Of a DNA stretch of 64,000 nucleotides, positions 1 to 28,130 are shown one piece after another (positions within the stretch are counted from its first letter, which is position 1; the number at the start of each line of letters is the position of its first letter). The translations under genes were made by a program, and so were the position numbers. The notes beneath the pieces are model-generated. The model did not search any database. It worked only from the letters and a program-made list of their open reading frames with translations, and was not told the DNA's origin. The stretch comes from Coptis chinensis (taxonomy: Eukaryota > Streptophyta > Magnoliopsida > Ranunculales > Ranunculaceae): positions 85,151,501 through 85,215,500 of the forward strand of contig CM027381.1 in assembly GCA_015680905.1 (NCBI GenBank), read 5' to 3'.

Positions 1-697
1 ATTGGTCTTGACTCACAACTTGTACATCTTGTTGAGCTTTCTATATCCTCTCCCAATTTTTCAATCCTTGTAAATGGTTCCCCACGTGGCTTTTTCAAAT
101 CTTCCAGAGGCTTCGACAGGGAGACCCTCTCTCACCCCTCTTGTTCATATGTTGCATGGAAGTTTTATCAAGATTAATAAACAAAAAATGTACATAACAA
201 AACCATAAAATTAATGGTATTAAAATTTCTAGAGACAGTGACCTCTTGATTCTTGTCGGGTATGATGGAAGTTTTACCCCACAGCATTGCACACATCACT
301 TGGCAAGTAGGTATAGGGAGTGTGACATACACATTTGGGAAGATTCATGGATTCCAAACCTAGCGGAGGGTAAAATACAAAACCATATACAGCCACACCA
401 CTTGTTTCTATCAGTGTCACAACTCATCAATCCCACCACAAAAGTTGGAACACATCCATACTTCACAATCTTTTTTACTCCTTCACAGCTAACCATATTA
501 AAGGTATTTAATTGCCAAAAACAAATCTTCATGACAAACTCTTATGGAACCTCACCAAAAAAGGAAACCACACAGTTAAATCTATGTACAACATCCTCAG
601 TCCCCCCACCAGCCGTCAGTGCCATCTCAAACTAAATTTAGCTTTTTAGCATAACAAACATTTACCCAGACACACCTTGTTTGCTTGGAAATGCTAC
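1..697 (+). mobile_element. LINE ORF2 remnant, first part (RT and zf-RVT)
   Basis: This is the 3' portion of a plant LINE; its start lies before the window. Near 100-170 a reverse-transcriptase motif of the type [12 protein letters not shown] can be read, with one frame change just upstream of it. From 246 the reading includes IHIWEDSWIPNL and then WNLTKKGNHTVKS and HTLFAWK, typical of the zf-RVT region after the polymerase domain. The distance between the RT motif and this region is several hundred bases shorter than in a whole ORF2, so there is an internal deletion. The coding sense stops at 697, where another element has entered, and resumes at 3295. It is a dead copy. Confidence 0.8.
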
Positions 698-735
698 TAT
701 AACACCTCGTTTATTTCTTTTATTTTTCCTAGACC

Positions 736-771
<36 letters not shown>

Positions 772-3294
772 GATAATAGATAATAGATAAAATAAAAATA
801 GGATAGATATTAGTTAGGATTTCTTTCATCCTTGTTTTTCGGGGGGTTTTAAAACAAAAATGAGTTCACACGTAGAGTTTATTTTTACATAGAGAAGAAA
901 AAATAGAGTTTTTCACATAGAGGAGAAGAGAGGTTTTTTGCTGGAGATTTACTGATAGCTGATATCAGCGGATAACAGGAGCGTCACAAGTGAGTAGTTA
1001 TATTTTTTTTTTCTATTTTCACCGAACCTAGAATTTTACGGGTACGAAGAAAAAGCTTTCTGTCATAGTTTTTCGCTCAATATTTTTTGTTGTTCTGCTT
1101 ATCCTTCTGTCGATATGTTTTTATCATCTTGTTAGTATTTCTAAAACTTGTTAATTTCTAAAACTTGTTAAATGTTAGTATGTTATTTTGCCAAATTACT
1201 ATTGAAAGATTGAACTGTTGAAGCTTATGGTTATTAATGGAGGTGCAAGCCCAATAGAAAGAAATCGTCCTGTATACCTTTTGAACTCTTATTTATTGTG
1301 GGTTTGAACTCATATGGTTGTTGTTTTGGGTTGGTTTATGATTGGTGGTAGTGGGGGGTGATGGAGTGCTGGAGAGTGGGGTTGTTGAAGCTTGAAGGAA
1401 GCGTTAATGGCAGCGCGATTGAGTTTTGGAGTAGCGAAGGTTTTGAGTTTTGATTGTATCGAAAGGTTGGGTTTTTGGTGAGGGTTCAAACCGATGGTTT
1501 TAGAGGGGCCAAATGTGGGTGGTTGATGGTGGCTGATCGGTGGAGGGGTGAGCTATTGAGGAAAAAGAAGGAGAGACAGCGATCCTATTCCTTTCTCTTT
1601 TTGTTGGGCTTGGGCCAAAATCAGTTTATGTGGGCTTGAATGTTTTCTTTTTTCATATTTCACTTATGGGCTTGAGTTTTAGTTGGGCTTGGGAAAGGCT
1701 AAAGACTTTGGGCCTTAGTCTTTGGGTTTTTGGGTTAAATGAGTTTAGGACTGGTTGACTGCTGTTGACCAGGGTTGACTTTAACTAGTTGACCAAGTTT
1801 GACCTTTAACTCTGCTAATGATTAGGTCTATTAGGGTAGGTCTAGGGCTATTAGCGTGCTATATATGTGTGTACGTGTATTAGCTACTATGTGATATTTC
1901 AGACTTTTATGATATACAACGCTATGACACTTAGACATCGATATAATTAATAACGCGTAAACAATAATACAAGAAATAAGATACTCCTCTGTTTTCTAAA
2001 ATAATATATGCAATAAAGTATAATAGTGTTCTCAACAAATTTACCACACCCTTTTAGAACTCTCCACCCCTCAAGTTTTGGAAATAAGATTTTATGACTG
2101 GTGATGTCATGTGATAGGTGGGCATTTATTGAATATGCCATAAATGTCCCGTTAGCATTATAAATGGGTATATTCATTGACTGTGCCATGAATGACTCGT
2201 TAGTGATATGAAAGGTATTCCTTGAATGTGGCAGGAATGACCTAAGGTATTCATTGAATGTGCCATGAATGACCTAAGTTTATATGCCCGAAGAGGCTAT
2301 AAAATATGTGTATGAAAGCCTAGAGATGGCTATGATATCGTGGCATTCGGAGGGAGAGAGGCACACAAAAATGTGTGATTTGGCAAATGTGTGGAGTGCA
2401 AATCGTGGAATAGGTACTAAAGGGTGGGTGTATAAGAAAAGTAATCGATTAATTAATAAGAGAAATTGATTTGATTGTGCGGGTGTGCTTGGGCTTGCAT
2501 TTGAATACTTATAGGATATCTACATATGTTATTTAGAATTTCTAACTTCCGTTTGCAGGAGGGTAGGACTTAATAATATTTTGTGTAGGGATGATGTCCT
2601 ACCCTTATACAAAAGTGGATATCGGTAAGATTTAATTCAATTACTAAGTTATTAAAATGAGTTAGTATAATGAGTTAATAGAATGGAAAGTCTTGCTTGG
2701 GAAGAAACTATGCCGGTTGAAATGATAGAACTACCTATCTTCCAAGCTGAGAATGGTTAAGTTATGGGTACATATAAAGTGTTTGTTTAGATAATTAAAG
2801 TCTGGAAATATTTTTATGTTGTTAGTCTACTCATACCATCAAATTCCATTTTGCTGACCCATATATGTTTGCTTTGTTTTGGCAACGTGGGTGTGTTCTT
2901 GGGAACATAGGTGGAAGGTAGTGGAACCACGGCGTGTGATTTGGATTCTTGCCTAGAGCAGTCCGTTAGTTCTTTTATTAATTAGGTCCGATTATTATTG
3001 GAAGGATGTAATAACGTAGTTTACACATTCAGTATGACATGTGAATATGGTAGGAGTTGTTTGATATGTTTTTTTTTTTTTTTAAGATAGCCTATTAATA
3101 AAGTGATGGCGGATAAATATTTAGATTATTTATTTAAGTTGATTCTTTTATGATATGGCTTTTAAGGTTTTTGTATGTGTTGTATTCACCTCGTCATAGT
3201 CTGGGTTTTAGACAATTGAATATAGTGATGTTTGAGATATTTATATTTCAAATATTCACTTTGTAATAATTATTTAGAAATTCGGGTTGTGACA
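698..3294 (-). mobile_element. Probable solo LTR (Ty3/gypsy-like) inside the LINE
   Basis: A 2597-bp block interrupts the LINE reading and is flanked on both sides by GCTAC (693-697 and 3295-3299), which fits a 5-bp target duplication. Read on the minus strand it begins TGTCACAACCCG and ends in GGTGTTATA, resembling the ends of many plant Ty3/gypsy LTRs. No gag or pol coding could be seen, which favours a solo LTR or a small LTR derivative. It contains an (AAT)n/(ATAG)n tract near 738-785 and short tandem copies of a TTCATTGAATGTGCCATGAA-like unit near 2160-2280. It is a fossil and younger than the LINE it entered. Confidence 0.6.
738..795. repeat. (AAT)n then (ATAG)n microsatellite
   Basis: A run of AATAAT units followed by several ATAGATA units, lying inside the probable LTR. 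Confidence 0.9.
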
Positions 3295-23345: not shown

Positions 23346-24194
23346 AAATTTTCACTATAGATATAACTTGACCATCTTTTGATTCCTTGACTGAAGAAAA
23401 TTTAAGGCAACAGAAAACAGTAGTATAAAAAGTAAGTTTATTTATAGTAGTGCAAAAAATAAACAAACTATATCACACTTATACATGCAAGAAGGAAATA
23501 ATGAGACTGGAACCTAAGCATATTGGCAAAAAAAAAAATTGATGCGCTTTCTAAACCCTAAGTTTTACTAATAAATGCCCGTGTTTTTTATCAGTGCAGT
23601 GAGCAACACATTGTTTTTTTATAGCTAATGTGAAAATATGAACTTACCCTAAGTAAAACTTATTTAAAAATATATCAGTATATATCAGCAAAAGTGCAAT
23701 GTGATTGACATATATCATTATGGATATTAAGAGGAAAAACTAACAACCTGATAGAATGAAATTGTGCAAAGGAGCACTTAATTCGTTGGTTAGTAAGTTG
23801 CTTATGACTTGTTACACATGATTGGTGCAGTAAGACATTTAGACCAATAGGTACCAAAATTCCTTGAAATGGTTTCATTTAATAATAAGTAATTACTTCA
23901 AATGTGTATAGTGTTAAAATATATCAATAACGCTTCAAGTATAAATCTAACATTTAGGCCTCAAAGTATTCCAAGTATTCAAAAACAAATATGAACATTG
24001 AGACGCATATCATGTCTCGGACAATTTTATGCTCAAGATGCTTAGTGAACATGCATCCTCTCTCACTTAATATCTTCATCAGAGAGTCTGTTAGATCTTG
24101 TCATGCAAGGTCAAGGCGAAAGATGGCATGGGACCGCGTGACAAACTCCATCACCAAAACCCATACCTTAATACCTTAATATATATATATATAT
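23346..24194. other. Spacer with one exon-like reading
   Basis: A minus-strand reading around 23760-23878 (NVLLHQSCVTSHKQLTNQRI) looks exon-like but is unidentified. The stretch ends in (AT)n at 24180-24194. Confidence 0.25.
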
Positions 24195-24491
24195 CGGTTT
24201 GTCTAGAGTGCCACTCTAATATTGCCACTCTTATCTCACACTTCTCCTCAGCCGTCCGATCTAATCTAAGTTTCAAAAGATCTAACACTCCAAATTTCAA
24301 ACAACAAAGTGGGGCTAAAAACGTCTTTTCCTAGCTCAAATTAGAAATCCACACTTTTGGATCTCTCTCTCCCCCATCTCGACAGCAAGAGAAACCGTGA
24401 TTTCTATGTGTTTTCTCCATGGTCGTGGTTGGAACTCTCTCTCTCTCTCTCTGCTAAGAATCAAGTTGCTATGAACCCAATCAACACTGTC
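24195..24491 (+). repeat. Left terminal inverted repeat of the Pack-type element
   Basis: Pairs with 27104-27402. It includes a (CT)n run at about 24436-24452. Confidence 0.85.
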
Positions 24492-25532
24492 GGGGCTTAT
24501 GTATGTCTTTCCTGAACAAGATTTGCGTTTGAATTTGTTTCAAGGGTAAATAAGCTCATCTTCCTCTTTAATCACTTCCATAATCCATCAATAATCAGGG
24601 CCTCGAGAGTCCTGTGATCTAAAATATTTTAGTATTTGAAGTATAGAGAAGCCTATAACCTTGCATGAGTCATCTTCTCAAGAGAATTGTGACTTCTGCA
24701 TGTGTTCCTTCATTTGCGTGTTTTTATCAAACAAGTGTACTAGTTTTTTTTAAAGAAGATGTCATTTTTCCTAATTAAAATTGATACCTACAAAAATCAG
24801 TGTTTTGTTACGACGAGGTACTTAGGTCATTAGTAGTTGATAGGTCTGGTTTGGAACTTCAGTAGATGGAAATAGCCTATGAGGGACATTAATGATTTAT
24901 TCTTTTAGTGGGAGGATCATCTTACGATTCACTATTATTGTTGAGGGAAAGACCATTTCATGATTTACTATTCTAATGAGGCATTTTGGAAATAACAATA
25001 TATGCAATCGGTAGAATGTACACCAGCATTTCTGCAATTTGCTGCAGCCGCAGAGCAAGCATATGCTTTGTTGATCAGTTAAGAAGAACTCAATGTTCTG
25101 TTTATGGTCATTGTATTCTGAATTTTGATGCTAATTTTCCAATACTTGCAACAAATATTATATAAGTTTGAGCCAAATTACAAGCAAATGGTCAAACACT
25201 CAAACTACAAGCAGTTGCAGGACTCCGTATACCAAATCACTTTGTTTAGTAGTGTGAGAGATGGTCAAACTACAAAGCCAAATTACATAACAGATTCATT
25301 GGTGTAAAATTACTTCTTCTCATTAAATAGATCACCAAATTTGCATCTTCCCAGTTACGGCTTTGTGATCGAGTCTTGCATTGGTCGGTCCCAGATTACT
25401 GCAGTTTACTTAAAGTTTCAGTCTCTTGAGAATTTATTCGTCCTTCCTGGATTCTCAAAAGCTTCATACATTTGTAGTTCAAACATTTGGAAAACAATAT
25501 TGTGATATAGCTCTCCATCTAAGAACCCCTAC

Positions 25533-25850
25533 AAGCATTCTGCAACTTGGTGAGGATCAAGATCGTTAAACGTACCTAAAGAAACACTTGCCCAAATTAG
25601 CAAGGAAGATGAATAATTAATACTGAAGAAAGAAGGAAATAGCAACAAAAGAAGCTGTTGAGTCATAACTCATAAGCTCACCGTTGAACATCAATTCCGT
25701 AACAAGAAGTACGTCTCCTGTGTCTATCAAGCATGCAGCACGGCCCTTTAACTAGACAACACCACCATCATCAATATGGCCAAGCTTCTACAAAACCCCG
25801 AACGATTTTTTAGTTCATCACGAGTTTTGAAGTCGCACAATGAATACCGC
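25533..25850 (-). pseudogene. Captured MTR4/HEN2-type DExH RNA helicase fragment
   Basis: The minus-strand readings DFKTRDELKNRS, KLGHIDDGGVV, LKGRAACLIDTGDVLLVTEL and MFNG match the C-terminal region of Ski2-like nuclear exosome helicases (MTR4/HEN2: LGHIDADGVVQLKGRAAC...TELMFNG). A GT donor follows at about 25680 and a TTTAG acceptor resumes the protein with GTFNDLDPHQVAECL, so an intron was carried along, which means capture at DNA level. A stop replaces the Gln after GVV and a frameshift follows NRS. Only about 80 codons remain, inside the TIR element. Confidence 0.75.
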
Positions 25851-26956
25851 AACTCTCTTTTTTAGACGTAAAAAACTTTAATTACTATTGGAAGAGTAAA
25901 AGATCTCATCAGAAGAGTGAATCACGAGAACAAAGCAGAAATCACATGGGTAGAGGATATATAAAATCAATGAACAAATCCTCAAGTGACACTGACAGTA
26001 ATGCTTGACAAGCTAAAGCAGAAGTTTTTTCATACATGACTGACAATTTTTTCCTTCATACATTTCACATTATGCTAAATTTATATCTAAAACAAAGAAT
26101 CACACGTGACAGAGAGACCTCTATCTCTATTTAGTTACCAACTGACAAACAAAGCAGCTGAACTAATAATATAGTAAAAAAAAAACAAATGTCTAGAAGA
26201 GACCTTCTGATTTCAAAATTCAAACTTCTACATGGGGGTATTTATATCTGTAAGAAAGTCGAATCCACTTCGATACGACTTTTTCTATCAATTGTAGATT
26301 GCCTCAAGATTCGCGTCCCACTTCTCGATGGTTTTATACATTGAAAAAAGAAAAATATGGAGAACCCTTAGAGATCAACTTCTTGAAGCATTTGGAATGA
26401 AAATAGGAAATTTTTACGCAATATATATATGTGGCTACTGGCTACAACATCATCATGACACTGACACCCTTCTCCTTCGACCTAAAAGATTCTCCTAGTG
26501 AAAAGGGATTTACTACAAGGAATTCTTCGAGGCAGCTAGCAATACCTGGTATTGTAAGTACTGTATTTTGGTTATCATAATAGGAGGATGTCTCGTTCAC
26601 TGAAAGTTACAACTACATGATATTTTAACAGATTTGGTTGAGACGAGAAATTACGATATGAAAGTGCCTTTTTCTTCTTTTTTTTCAGTATTTTCTGCTC
26701 CCTCTTCTTGTATGCATGAGTCTCCCCCTCACCTTTTTCTCTCCTAATCAATAAGATACTAATTTACCCAAAATAAAAAGACATTCCAATGTGCATGTTT
26801 CGGTTCTACTTCCTATTAATAATTACAGTTTTTGTCTTAGATGCCGTGAACCATAATATACAAGTCGAATCAGTACAGAGCACAAAAAATGGAAAACTTA
26901 CAACGACTTCATGAGCTAATACATAGGAATATTCAAAAAAAAAAAAAAAAAAAAAA

Positions 26957-27056
26957 GGAACATGAATCCACTTTCCTTGTTCTAATGTCAACAGATTAGC
27001 GCATGCAGCAAGAGCACTAACAAGGGTAAACTCATTTGGAGAAAATACAACAGATC

Positions 27057-27060
<4 letters not shown>
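26957..27060 (-). pseudogene. Captured PPR protein fragment
   Basis: The minus-strand reading VVFSPNEFTLVSALAACANL followed by LTLEQGKWIHV is the classic PLS-class pentatricopeptide repeat sequence (PNEFTLVSALAACA..GALEQGKWIH). Only about one repeat is present. It stops at a T-rich run and abuts the right TIR. It is a fragment of an organelle RNA-processing type gene caught in the transposon. Confidence 0.75.
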
Positions 27061-27087
<27 letters not shown>

Positions 27088-27103
27088 ATTAGATCTTACC
27101 ATA

Positions 27104-27402
27104 GACAGTGTTGATTGGGTTCATAGCAACTTGATTCTTAGCAGCAGAGAGAGAGAGAGAGAGTTCTAGCCACGACCATGGAGAAAACACAGAGAAATCA
27201 TGGTTTCTCTTGCTATTGAGATGGGGGAGAGAGAGATCCAAAGTGTGGATTTCTAATTTGAGCTAGGAAAAGACGTTTTTACCCCCACTTTGTTGTTTGA
27301 AATTTGGAGTGTTAGATCTTTTTAAACTTAGATTAGATCGGACGGTTCAGGAGGGGTGTGAGGTAAGAGTGGCACAATAAGGGTGGCACTTTAGCCTAAC
27401 CG
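27104..27402 (-). repeat. Right terminal inverted repeat of the Pack-type element
   Basis: Reverse complement of 24195-24491. Confidence 0.85.

Positions 27403-27407
<5 letters not shown>

Positions 27408-27486
<79 letters not shown>
27408..27486. repeat. (AT)n microsatellite
   Basis: About 80 bp of nearly pure AT next to the right TIR. The left TIR is also preceded by (AT)n, so the element lies within or created an AT tract. Confidence 0.95.
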
Positions 27487-27488
<2 letters not shown>

Positions 27489-28130
27489 TAGTTACCAAAC
27501 GTAATGACAGTAGGTCAGATACGGTTGTGTTAAATCCTAAAAACACCGACCTGTTGTACGACCATTGGCATAGAGAGAAAACACAGTCCGAATTGTAATG
27601 CTTACGCGATTGATCTTCCTTCTACATTCAACATCTCGAATACCTTTAATGTGCAAGACATTTTCCCTTTCTATGGTGATGAAGCTTTCTCTCTACCGGA
27701 TGCCAACACGAGGTCGTGTTTTTCTCATGAAGGGGGGTGACTGATGTAGAACATCAAGCCCGCACTATCCAGCAAGTATAAGACCTTGCTAAAGTATTAA
27801 GAGATGTCCAGACTACTCTAGTCTGTGTTGCATTAAGTTAGTTACTTCATTTTCTTTCTGTCTATTCTTAGTCTTTTGTTTCCTTAGCTGTTACGTGACT
27901 AACGTGTAAACCCTTAACTATAAAAGGGTGTAGACTTATTTGGTTTAGACACCGACCTATTACTATTGAATCAAGATTATTTTCCAGAAACCCCAAGTTC
28001 TCTCCGATTCTCCTTGTTCTTGTTCTTTGACTGCGTCTTCTCCTCCTTTTCCATACTAAATCCTCTTCTTTTCTTGATCAGTGAAGATCTCTTCATCTTT
28101 TTTCGTCTATTCGAGATTCTTGAGTCATCA
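27487..28130 (+). mobile_element. Ty3/gypsy element end: pol tail, polypurine tract and LTR
   Basis: The plus-strand reading NAYAIDLPSTFNISNTFNV then DIFPFYGDE is the conserved end of plant Ty3/gypsy polyproteins. It is followed by AAGGGGGGTGAC, a polypurine tract, and then TGATGTAGAACATC, where an LTR begins (about 27742). The LTR includes a TATA element (ACTATAAAAGGG near 27920) and ends near CATCACA at about 28130. The rest of the element is absent and the left side runs into the AT microsatellite. It is a broken fossil. Confidence 0.7.

Follow-up and report, generated by a model that had tools for sequence, protein, structure and literature searches.

The window, a stretch of 64,000 bp from Coptis chinensis (C5:85151501-85215500), contains an element of 3,208 bp at positions 24195 to 27402, in which 2,612 bp are enclosed between inverted arms of 297 and 299 bp. 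An earlier note on this DNA, made from the sequence alone, had described a Pack-type transposon with 297-bp inverted ends that lies in an AT microsatellite and carries pieces of two unrelated host genes and no transposase. Inverted-repeat alignment placed the left terminal inverted repeat (TIR; outer end CGGTTTGTCTAGAGTGCCAC) at 24195 to 24491 on the plus strand and the right TIR at 27104 to 27402 on the minus strand, with 276 of 296 aligned bases identical (93.2%), 20 mismatches, and 4 gap positions. The alignment score of 500, against a maximum of -8 in 200 shuffles, indicates that the arms are related to each other; the note had held that its reading would fall if they were not. TA tracts flank the element on both sides, as the note had seen: a left tract at 24178 to 24194, where three empty paralogous sites have a short TA tract in the corresponding position, and a long right tract at 27403 to 27486, recognized from the sequence and from empty paralogous sites. 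A readable target duplication is absent from this copy. Farther into the right flank (27534 to 27740), a frame resembles by eye the end of a Ty3-type polyprotein, so that a retroelement may contain or adjoin the host tract.

The element had a GC content of 36.2%, compared with 34.9% for the window, and its longest stop-to-stop frame was 104 amino acids. A Pfam scan of 13 of the 20 frames of at least 50 amino acids in or overlapping the element found no transposase, and yielded a weak match to DUF3732 (E value, 0.015) that was below the cutoff of that family. A tblastn search of the element with the FAR1, MULE, and C-terminal parts of a transposase from a relative on C1 (see below) likewise gave no match, in agreement with the note. 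Two internal stretches are related to other loci of the genome. The first, at 24488 to 25158, is 82% identical to C9:27712817-27713484 and overlaps the helicase-associated DNA described below; the other, at 27046 to 27112 (minus strand), is 86.6% identical to the inner part of the long TIRs of an element on C6 and continues into the right TIR.

The helicase and PPR pieces

About 2 kb of the element derives from an MTR4/HEN2-type helicase locus; HEN2 is the plant paralogue. Alignment to loci on C3 identified, at 25540 to 26940 on the minus strand, the start of exon 4, an intron, exon 3, and a further intron, with exon 3 placed within 25623 to 25862 by tblastn. The intron between exon 3 and the start of exon 4 is retained, as the note had proposed, and exon 3 is interrupted by stops. 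A further stretch at 24973 to 25537 (minus strand), in which no exon was recognized, is shared with helicase-bearing loci (88 to 90% with those on C2 and C6, and in part 82 to 88% with those on C3). At the junction between the two (25512 to 25540), about 666 bp of the C2 locus is missing from the element. The note had placed the helicase homology at 25533 to 25850, where it is indeed present, but it extends much further, from 24973 to 26940.

Element positions 1346 to 2746 aligned piecewise to three C3 loci (35.87, 35.85, and 34.73 Mb), with 84 to 92% identity in the longer pieces. The locus at 35.87 Mb contains helicase exons with a DSHCT domain (PF08148; E value, 7.7e-9), for which MTR4 and DOB1 were the top matches among solved structures (best E value, 3.7e-13). 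The nearest locus for positions 779 to 1318 (90.1%) and 1346 to 2697 (94.8%) was on C2, and a locus on C6 was 88.4% identical over positions 779 to 1346 and 92.7% identical over positions 1346 to 2697. The C2 and C6 loci have in common a 6.5-kb segment with 94.5% identity. Based on the closeness of these fragments, the donor may have been a helicase gene copy that was already fragmentary, or a near relative. On C2 (75556500-75566400), the helicase fragment adjoins a gene with a lipoyl-ligase domain (PF21948, tested at this locus); C6:99575500-99585400 is the counterpart of this segment, and short matches to the TIR of the window element were seen nearby.

The second captured piece is an 82-bp part of a PPR-DYW gene at 26960 to 27041 (element positions 2766 to 2847), on the minus strand like the helicase piece, as the note had stated. 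It is 98.8% identical to C13:484428-484509, in a gene that carries E, E+, and DYW motifs, and all 27 core residues are the same. The interval that the note had given for this piece (26957 to 27060) thus contains the PPR sequence, but the final ∼20 bp lie outside that sequence. On C7, a partial PPR copy (positions 1134 to 1300 of C7:25183000-25185500) is joined to inner-TIR sequence of the element's family, with 41 bp identical to the inner TIR beside the PPR sequence. This copy may be a truncated sister element, or it may preserve this capture at an earlier stage.

Copies of the chimera

The interior of the element was searched against the whole 936-Mb genome, 40 of 46 candidates were scored, and the fetched loci were then aligned; a further genome search, which contributed to the evidence for both TIRs, scored 40 of 642 candidates. 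The helicase-PPR chimera with both ends was found in five copies: the window element, one at C4:53.37 Mb (covering element positions 9 to 3208), one at C5:74.08 Mb (positions 1 to 454 and 619 to 3208), and two on C9. Wherever helicase and PPR pieces occurred together among the 40 scored interior candidates and the loci read, the sequence was a copy of the TIR element; their occurrence side by side elsewhere was another outcome that the note had regarded as contrary to its reading. The dispersed copies keep the helicase-PPR arrangement, and beside those on C4, C5, and C9, TIR pieces stand back to back across a TA tract.

Both C9 copies are split at element position ∼2520, with left halves starting at 4139178 and 4376804 and right halves at 4159584 and 4406181. 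GTATG is present on both sides of the break, and the intervening DNA starts with TG and ends with CA. From these termini, we infer that each pair of halves is one element split by an LTR-type insertion. Because the break is identical, the two copies appear to have a single common origin, and they probably arose by segmental duplication. Small internal-deletion derivatives lie near them, at C9:4172.4 and 4411.0 kb. The region from 4.13 to 4.42 Mb on C9 is a cluster of family members, parts of which are present twice on this chromosome.

A family of ends in TA tracts

We counted ends of the same type in the genome by joining the first 23 bases of the left end to TA-repeat flanks, allowing up to 2 mismatches. 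With ATATAT outside the end, there were 265 matches, and with TATATA, 184, for a total of 449 TA-flanked ends, compared with none in the reversed-pattern control for either flank. Further copies of the end, which the note had suggested looking for by TIR, are thus numerous. When a G or C was required six bases outside the 23-base end, only 2 exact matches were found, one of which (C8:1622567) lies five bases (TATAT) away from another end. With as many as 2 mismatches allowed, this pattern gave 427 matches (1 in the reversed control), a count that takes in the TA-flanked ends, since an A or T there uses up one mismatch. The TA microsatellite that the note had recorded around the window element is the usual target of this family and not an incidental setting.

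The arrangement of ends was read from 208 listed ones: 100 with ATATAT, 57 of the 59 exact TATATA ends (the other two are on small contigs, C56 and C101), 36 TATATA ends with one mismatch, and 15 from the G/C pattern, with flanks other than perfect TA. Among these listed ends, 41 neighboring pairs were convergent within 20 kb, at distances of 2.1 to 16.7 kb, with the caveat that a long convergent pair is not necessarily one element; the other orientations accounted for 3, 5, and 3 pairs. In some cases (e.g., C1:23584084/23584124 and C5:71457005/71457092), a single short TA tract separates two ends placed back to back, and we read extra outer TIR pieces as the ends of neighboring elements across such a tract and not as tandem TIRs.

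The left flank of the window element is a repeat with further copies in the genome. Three of the six fetched flank paralogues crossed a short TA tract uninterrupted and represent empty sites. Another was rearranged, and one was without the right flank. In the sixth (C3:119058700-119059900, minus strand), a different short inverted-repeat element with ends GGCGGATCTTAGAAGTAC occupies the same TA tract, so this tract seems to be a target for another family as well.

We read target duplications at 10 end pairs, formed by 9 left ends, one of which had two right ends, chosen for their imperfect TA flanks. One pair was decisive: a relative outside a microsatellite, at C2:105815383-105822048, has a perfect 9-bp target duplication, CTATATAAA, which supplies the duplication at a non-AT site that the note had called for. 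Five pairs matched at 8 or 9 of 9 positions, although these are TA rich and suit other odd lengths too; one matched at 6 of 9, and three (L060/L061, L072/L073, and L074/L075) did not fit. If a duplication within a TA tract has an odd length, the flanks on either side are expected to be in opposite phase. Of the 41 convergent pairs, 19 were in opposite phase, 13 in the same phase, and 9 undetermined (P = 0.38); an early count by eye over part of the list (∼15 versus 4) did not hold in this full count.

Transposase-bearing relatives

All 150 places listed for the MULE transposase domain (PF10551), out of 4,347 first-look candidates, were compared with the listed ends. Eight of the 150 are on the strand of a listed end and 1,985 to 2,819 bp inward of it; a further two are on the strand opposite to an end and outside it. 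These 10 domains within 4 kb of a listed end, in any placement, compare with a random mean of 0.26 and a maximum of 3 (150 points, 2,000 trials), where the random points were placed uniformly and ignore the clustering of transposons.

Predicted transposase-bearing members with the same ends, the partners that the note had asked for, are thus present in the genome, e.g., on C1 and C9. The C1 partner has a FAR1 DNA-binding domain (PF03101; E value, 3.4e-14) and a MULE domain (PF10551; E value, 1.2e-33), and its second TIR end was not found within the stretch fetched. FAR1 domains are linked with Jittery. The C9 partner (C9:4173095-4184337) has related TIRs at both ends (∼250 bp aligned, 79.7%) with TA tracts outside them, and its neighbor, in back-to-back orientation, is a deletion derivative of the window element. 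Its FAR1 and MULE regions were 81 and 91% identical to those of the C1 partner by tblastn, with the coding stretches spread over several frames. The TIR of the window element matches that of the C9 partner only over the outer ∼65 to 80 bp.

Tblastn with the three transposase parts of the C1 partner, over 10 loci in all, was positive for the C9 partner and negative for the window element, its copies L031 to L034, and four long relatives. These four, which we therefore rejected as autonomous partners, are a 4.7-kb element at C1:74.55 Mb, a 9.6-kb element at C8:95.45 Mb, a 3.6-kb element at C8:65.60 Mb, and a 5.6-kb element at C6:75.54 Mb. Members with and without transposase have in common a tandem-repeat-like internal stretch, which aligns with itself and among them (positions 88 to 1580 of L049, the C1 partner; 3645 to 3893 of L045; 8723 to 9160 of L043; and 2230 to 2820 of L053).

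Other captured sequences

The TIRs of the C6 element (75541446-75547071) measure 544 and 540 bp, with 521 of 535 aligned bases identical, and this element contains two pieces of class-I fructose-bisphosphate aldolase (E value, 7e-13 each). The C1:74.55 Mb element contains a kinase-like piece (Pkinase; E value, 0.0022, below the curated cutoff), the peptide of which is present in both arms, and a similar kinase-like peptide lies at the right end of the C8:95.45 Mb element; putative receptor-kinase pieces in these relatives are weakly supported. An F-box-like frame in the C8:65.60 Mb element had no Pfam match, and thus we claim no capture there. In a small and unplanned sample of four transposase-less lineages (the window type, C1:74.55/C8:95.45 Mb, C6, and C8:65.60 Mb), two contained clear host gene DNA and one probably did.

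Discussion

Our analysis confirmed the observation of a gene-carrying TIR element, and the description of it as a Pack-type element with long TIRs and pieces of two unrelated genes is supported. We consider it very probable that this is a nonautonomous, gene-carrying element of the Pack-MULE type, belonging to a lineage of Mutator-like elements (MULEs) with FAR1-domain transposases and inserting mainly into TA microsatellites. MULEs have long TIRs (here, 297 and 299 bp), a target duplication of 8 to 11 bp, usually 9 (seen here in one family member), and transposase in relatives with the same ends (here, as predicted domains). Host gene DNA between TIRs with no transposase is characteristic of Pack-MULEs, as is mobility after capture (here, dispersed copies with one helicase-PPR arrangement), and insertion in TA tracts is characteristic of TA-targeting MULEs; all three are found here. 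The earlier note had found the termini unlike the Mutator ends known to it and had suggested a poorly described family. Given the 9-bp duplication in a member and the MULE transposase in the partners, the family is Mutator-like and therefore not unplaced.

Under this interpretation, transposase made elsewhere in the genome would bind the TIRs of the element, which would move by cut and paste with 9-bp staggered cuts. The duplication would be masked within a TA tract, the length of which slippage would then alter. The helicase and PPR pieces would have been acquired at the DNA level, probably during the repair of a gap in a parent element with other loci serving as templates. The chimera would have been amplified after its assembly, because the copies keep the same internal order. 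We claim no function for the carried pieces, and the helicase exon is broken by stops.

The unfamiliar termini, and the fact that TA targets by themselves fit Tc1/mariner, could point to another TIR superfamily that also favors TA (hAT, PIF/Harbinger, CACTA, or Tc1/mariner). However, the perfect 9-bp duplication in a family member and the eight MULE transposase domains found inward of these ends at similar distances make this very improbable. Even less credible, to the point of being negligible, is an inverted duplication, by chance or of older date, that surrounds a rearranged pseudogene, with no transposon involved; a broken helicase exon would fit such a history, but the empty sites, the dispersed copies that share these ends, and the large number of related ends would not.

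The manner of entry into the microsatellite deserves separate consideration. Homologous recombination of circular intermediates has been proposed for SaTar elements, and the two ends found at times back to back in one TA tract are like SaTar arrays, as described in the accessible sections of that report (PMC5907723). The window site without a readable duplication, and flank phases of 19 opposite versus 13 same (P = 0.38), are also compatible with such entry. Nevertheless, the 9-bp duplication at a nonmicrosatellite site represents ordinary transposition at least once, and only short TA tracts are present at the three empty sites, so that we regard recombination of circles as unlikely here and favor ordinary transposition. 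A refinement compatible with that interpretation is that capture was stepwise, from other transposons or fragmentary gene copies and not directly from working genes, which we place at close to even chances. The main helicase stretch is closest to the C2 (94.8%) and C6 (92.7%) fragments, compared with 84 to 92% by piece for C3, and the C7 PPR locus has its 41 bp identical to the inner TIR. On the other hand, the C13 PPR-DYW gene and the PPR piece share 98.8% identity over 82 bp, and identity ranks over short or mostly noncoding DNA are weak evidence.

TA targeting and gene capture are each already known in MULEs, and the point of interest is that both occur in one family. The comparisons that follow draw on the accessible sections of the published reports. 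MuTAnT of Medicago truncatula, a Mutator-like family that targets TA microsatellites, resembles the Coptis family in these targets and in the 9-bp duplications at the few sites where it has inserted outside perfect TA tracts; its autonomous element has a Jittery-like transposase (PMC4486113). The TIR mask published for MuTAnT (PMC4486113), GGGGTTTGCTAGAACA, resembles CGGTTTGTCTAGAGTG in a comparison by eye. In contrast, 90% of MuTAnT elements are 200 to 300 bp, whereas paired ends here are 2.1 to 16.7 kb apart, and the accessible text on MuTAnT does not mention gene capture, while some Coptis elements carry host gene pieces (PMC4486113). SaTar elements of guayule and rice, including Micron, are also nonautonomous MULEs in TA-tract arrays with related autonomous MULEs, but they are smaller (380 to 1,900 bp in rice and about 400 to 1,700 bp in guayule) than the 3,208-bp window element (PMC5907723). 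Three rice SaTar families are termed non-Pack-MULEs, and the term gene fragment is absent from the accessible text (PMC5907723). TAFT of maize is likewise TA flanked, with expansion of the tract after insertion, as described in PMC5907723; TAFT is also cited in PMC4486113.

Pack-MULEs, like the window element, are nonautonomous MULEs with host gene DNA between their TIRs, but the word microsatellite is absent from the accessible text of PMC8903248, whereas the Coptis family targets TA microsatellites. In the MULEs with multiple TIRs described by Ferguson and Jiang, acquired sequence can enter extended TIRs, according to the sections consulted (PMC3310237). The relative at C1:74.55 Mb, with its captured kinase-like peptide in both arms, is similar in this respect, but outer TIR pieces here are read as the ends of neighboring elements. 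A limited search of the open-licence literature found no TA-targeting MULE family that carries gene pieces.

One family thus joins two known Mutator-like behaviors, landing in TA microsatellites and carriage of host genes. Whether the lineage goes further, systematically capturing genes, partly in growing TIRs, and stacking modules end to end so that new combinations are assembled at low-harm sites, is a tentative idea that we consider somewhat doubtful at present. If capture is common in the lineage, gene fragments would be brought to TA tracts and stacked there. The family is also useful for studying insertion by microsatellite-targeting MULEs, because its repeated flanks give empty sites and at least one nonmicrosatellite insertion has a 9-bp duplication.
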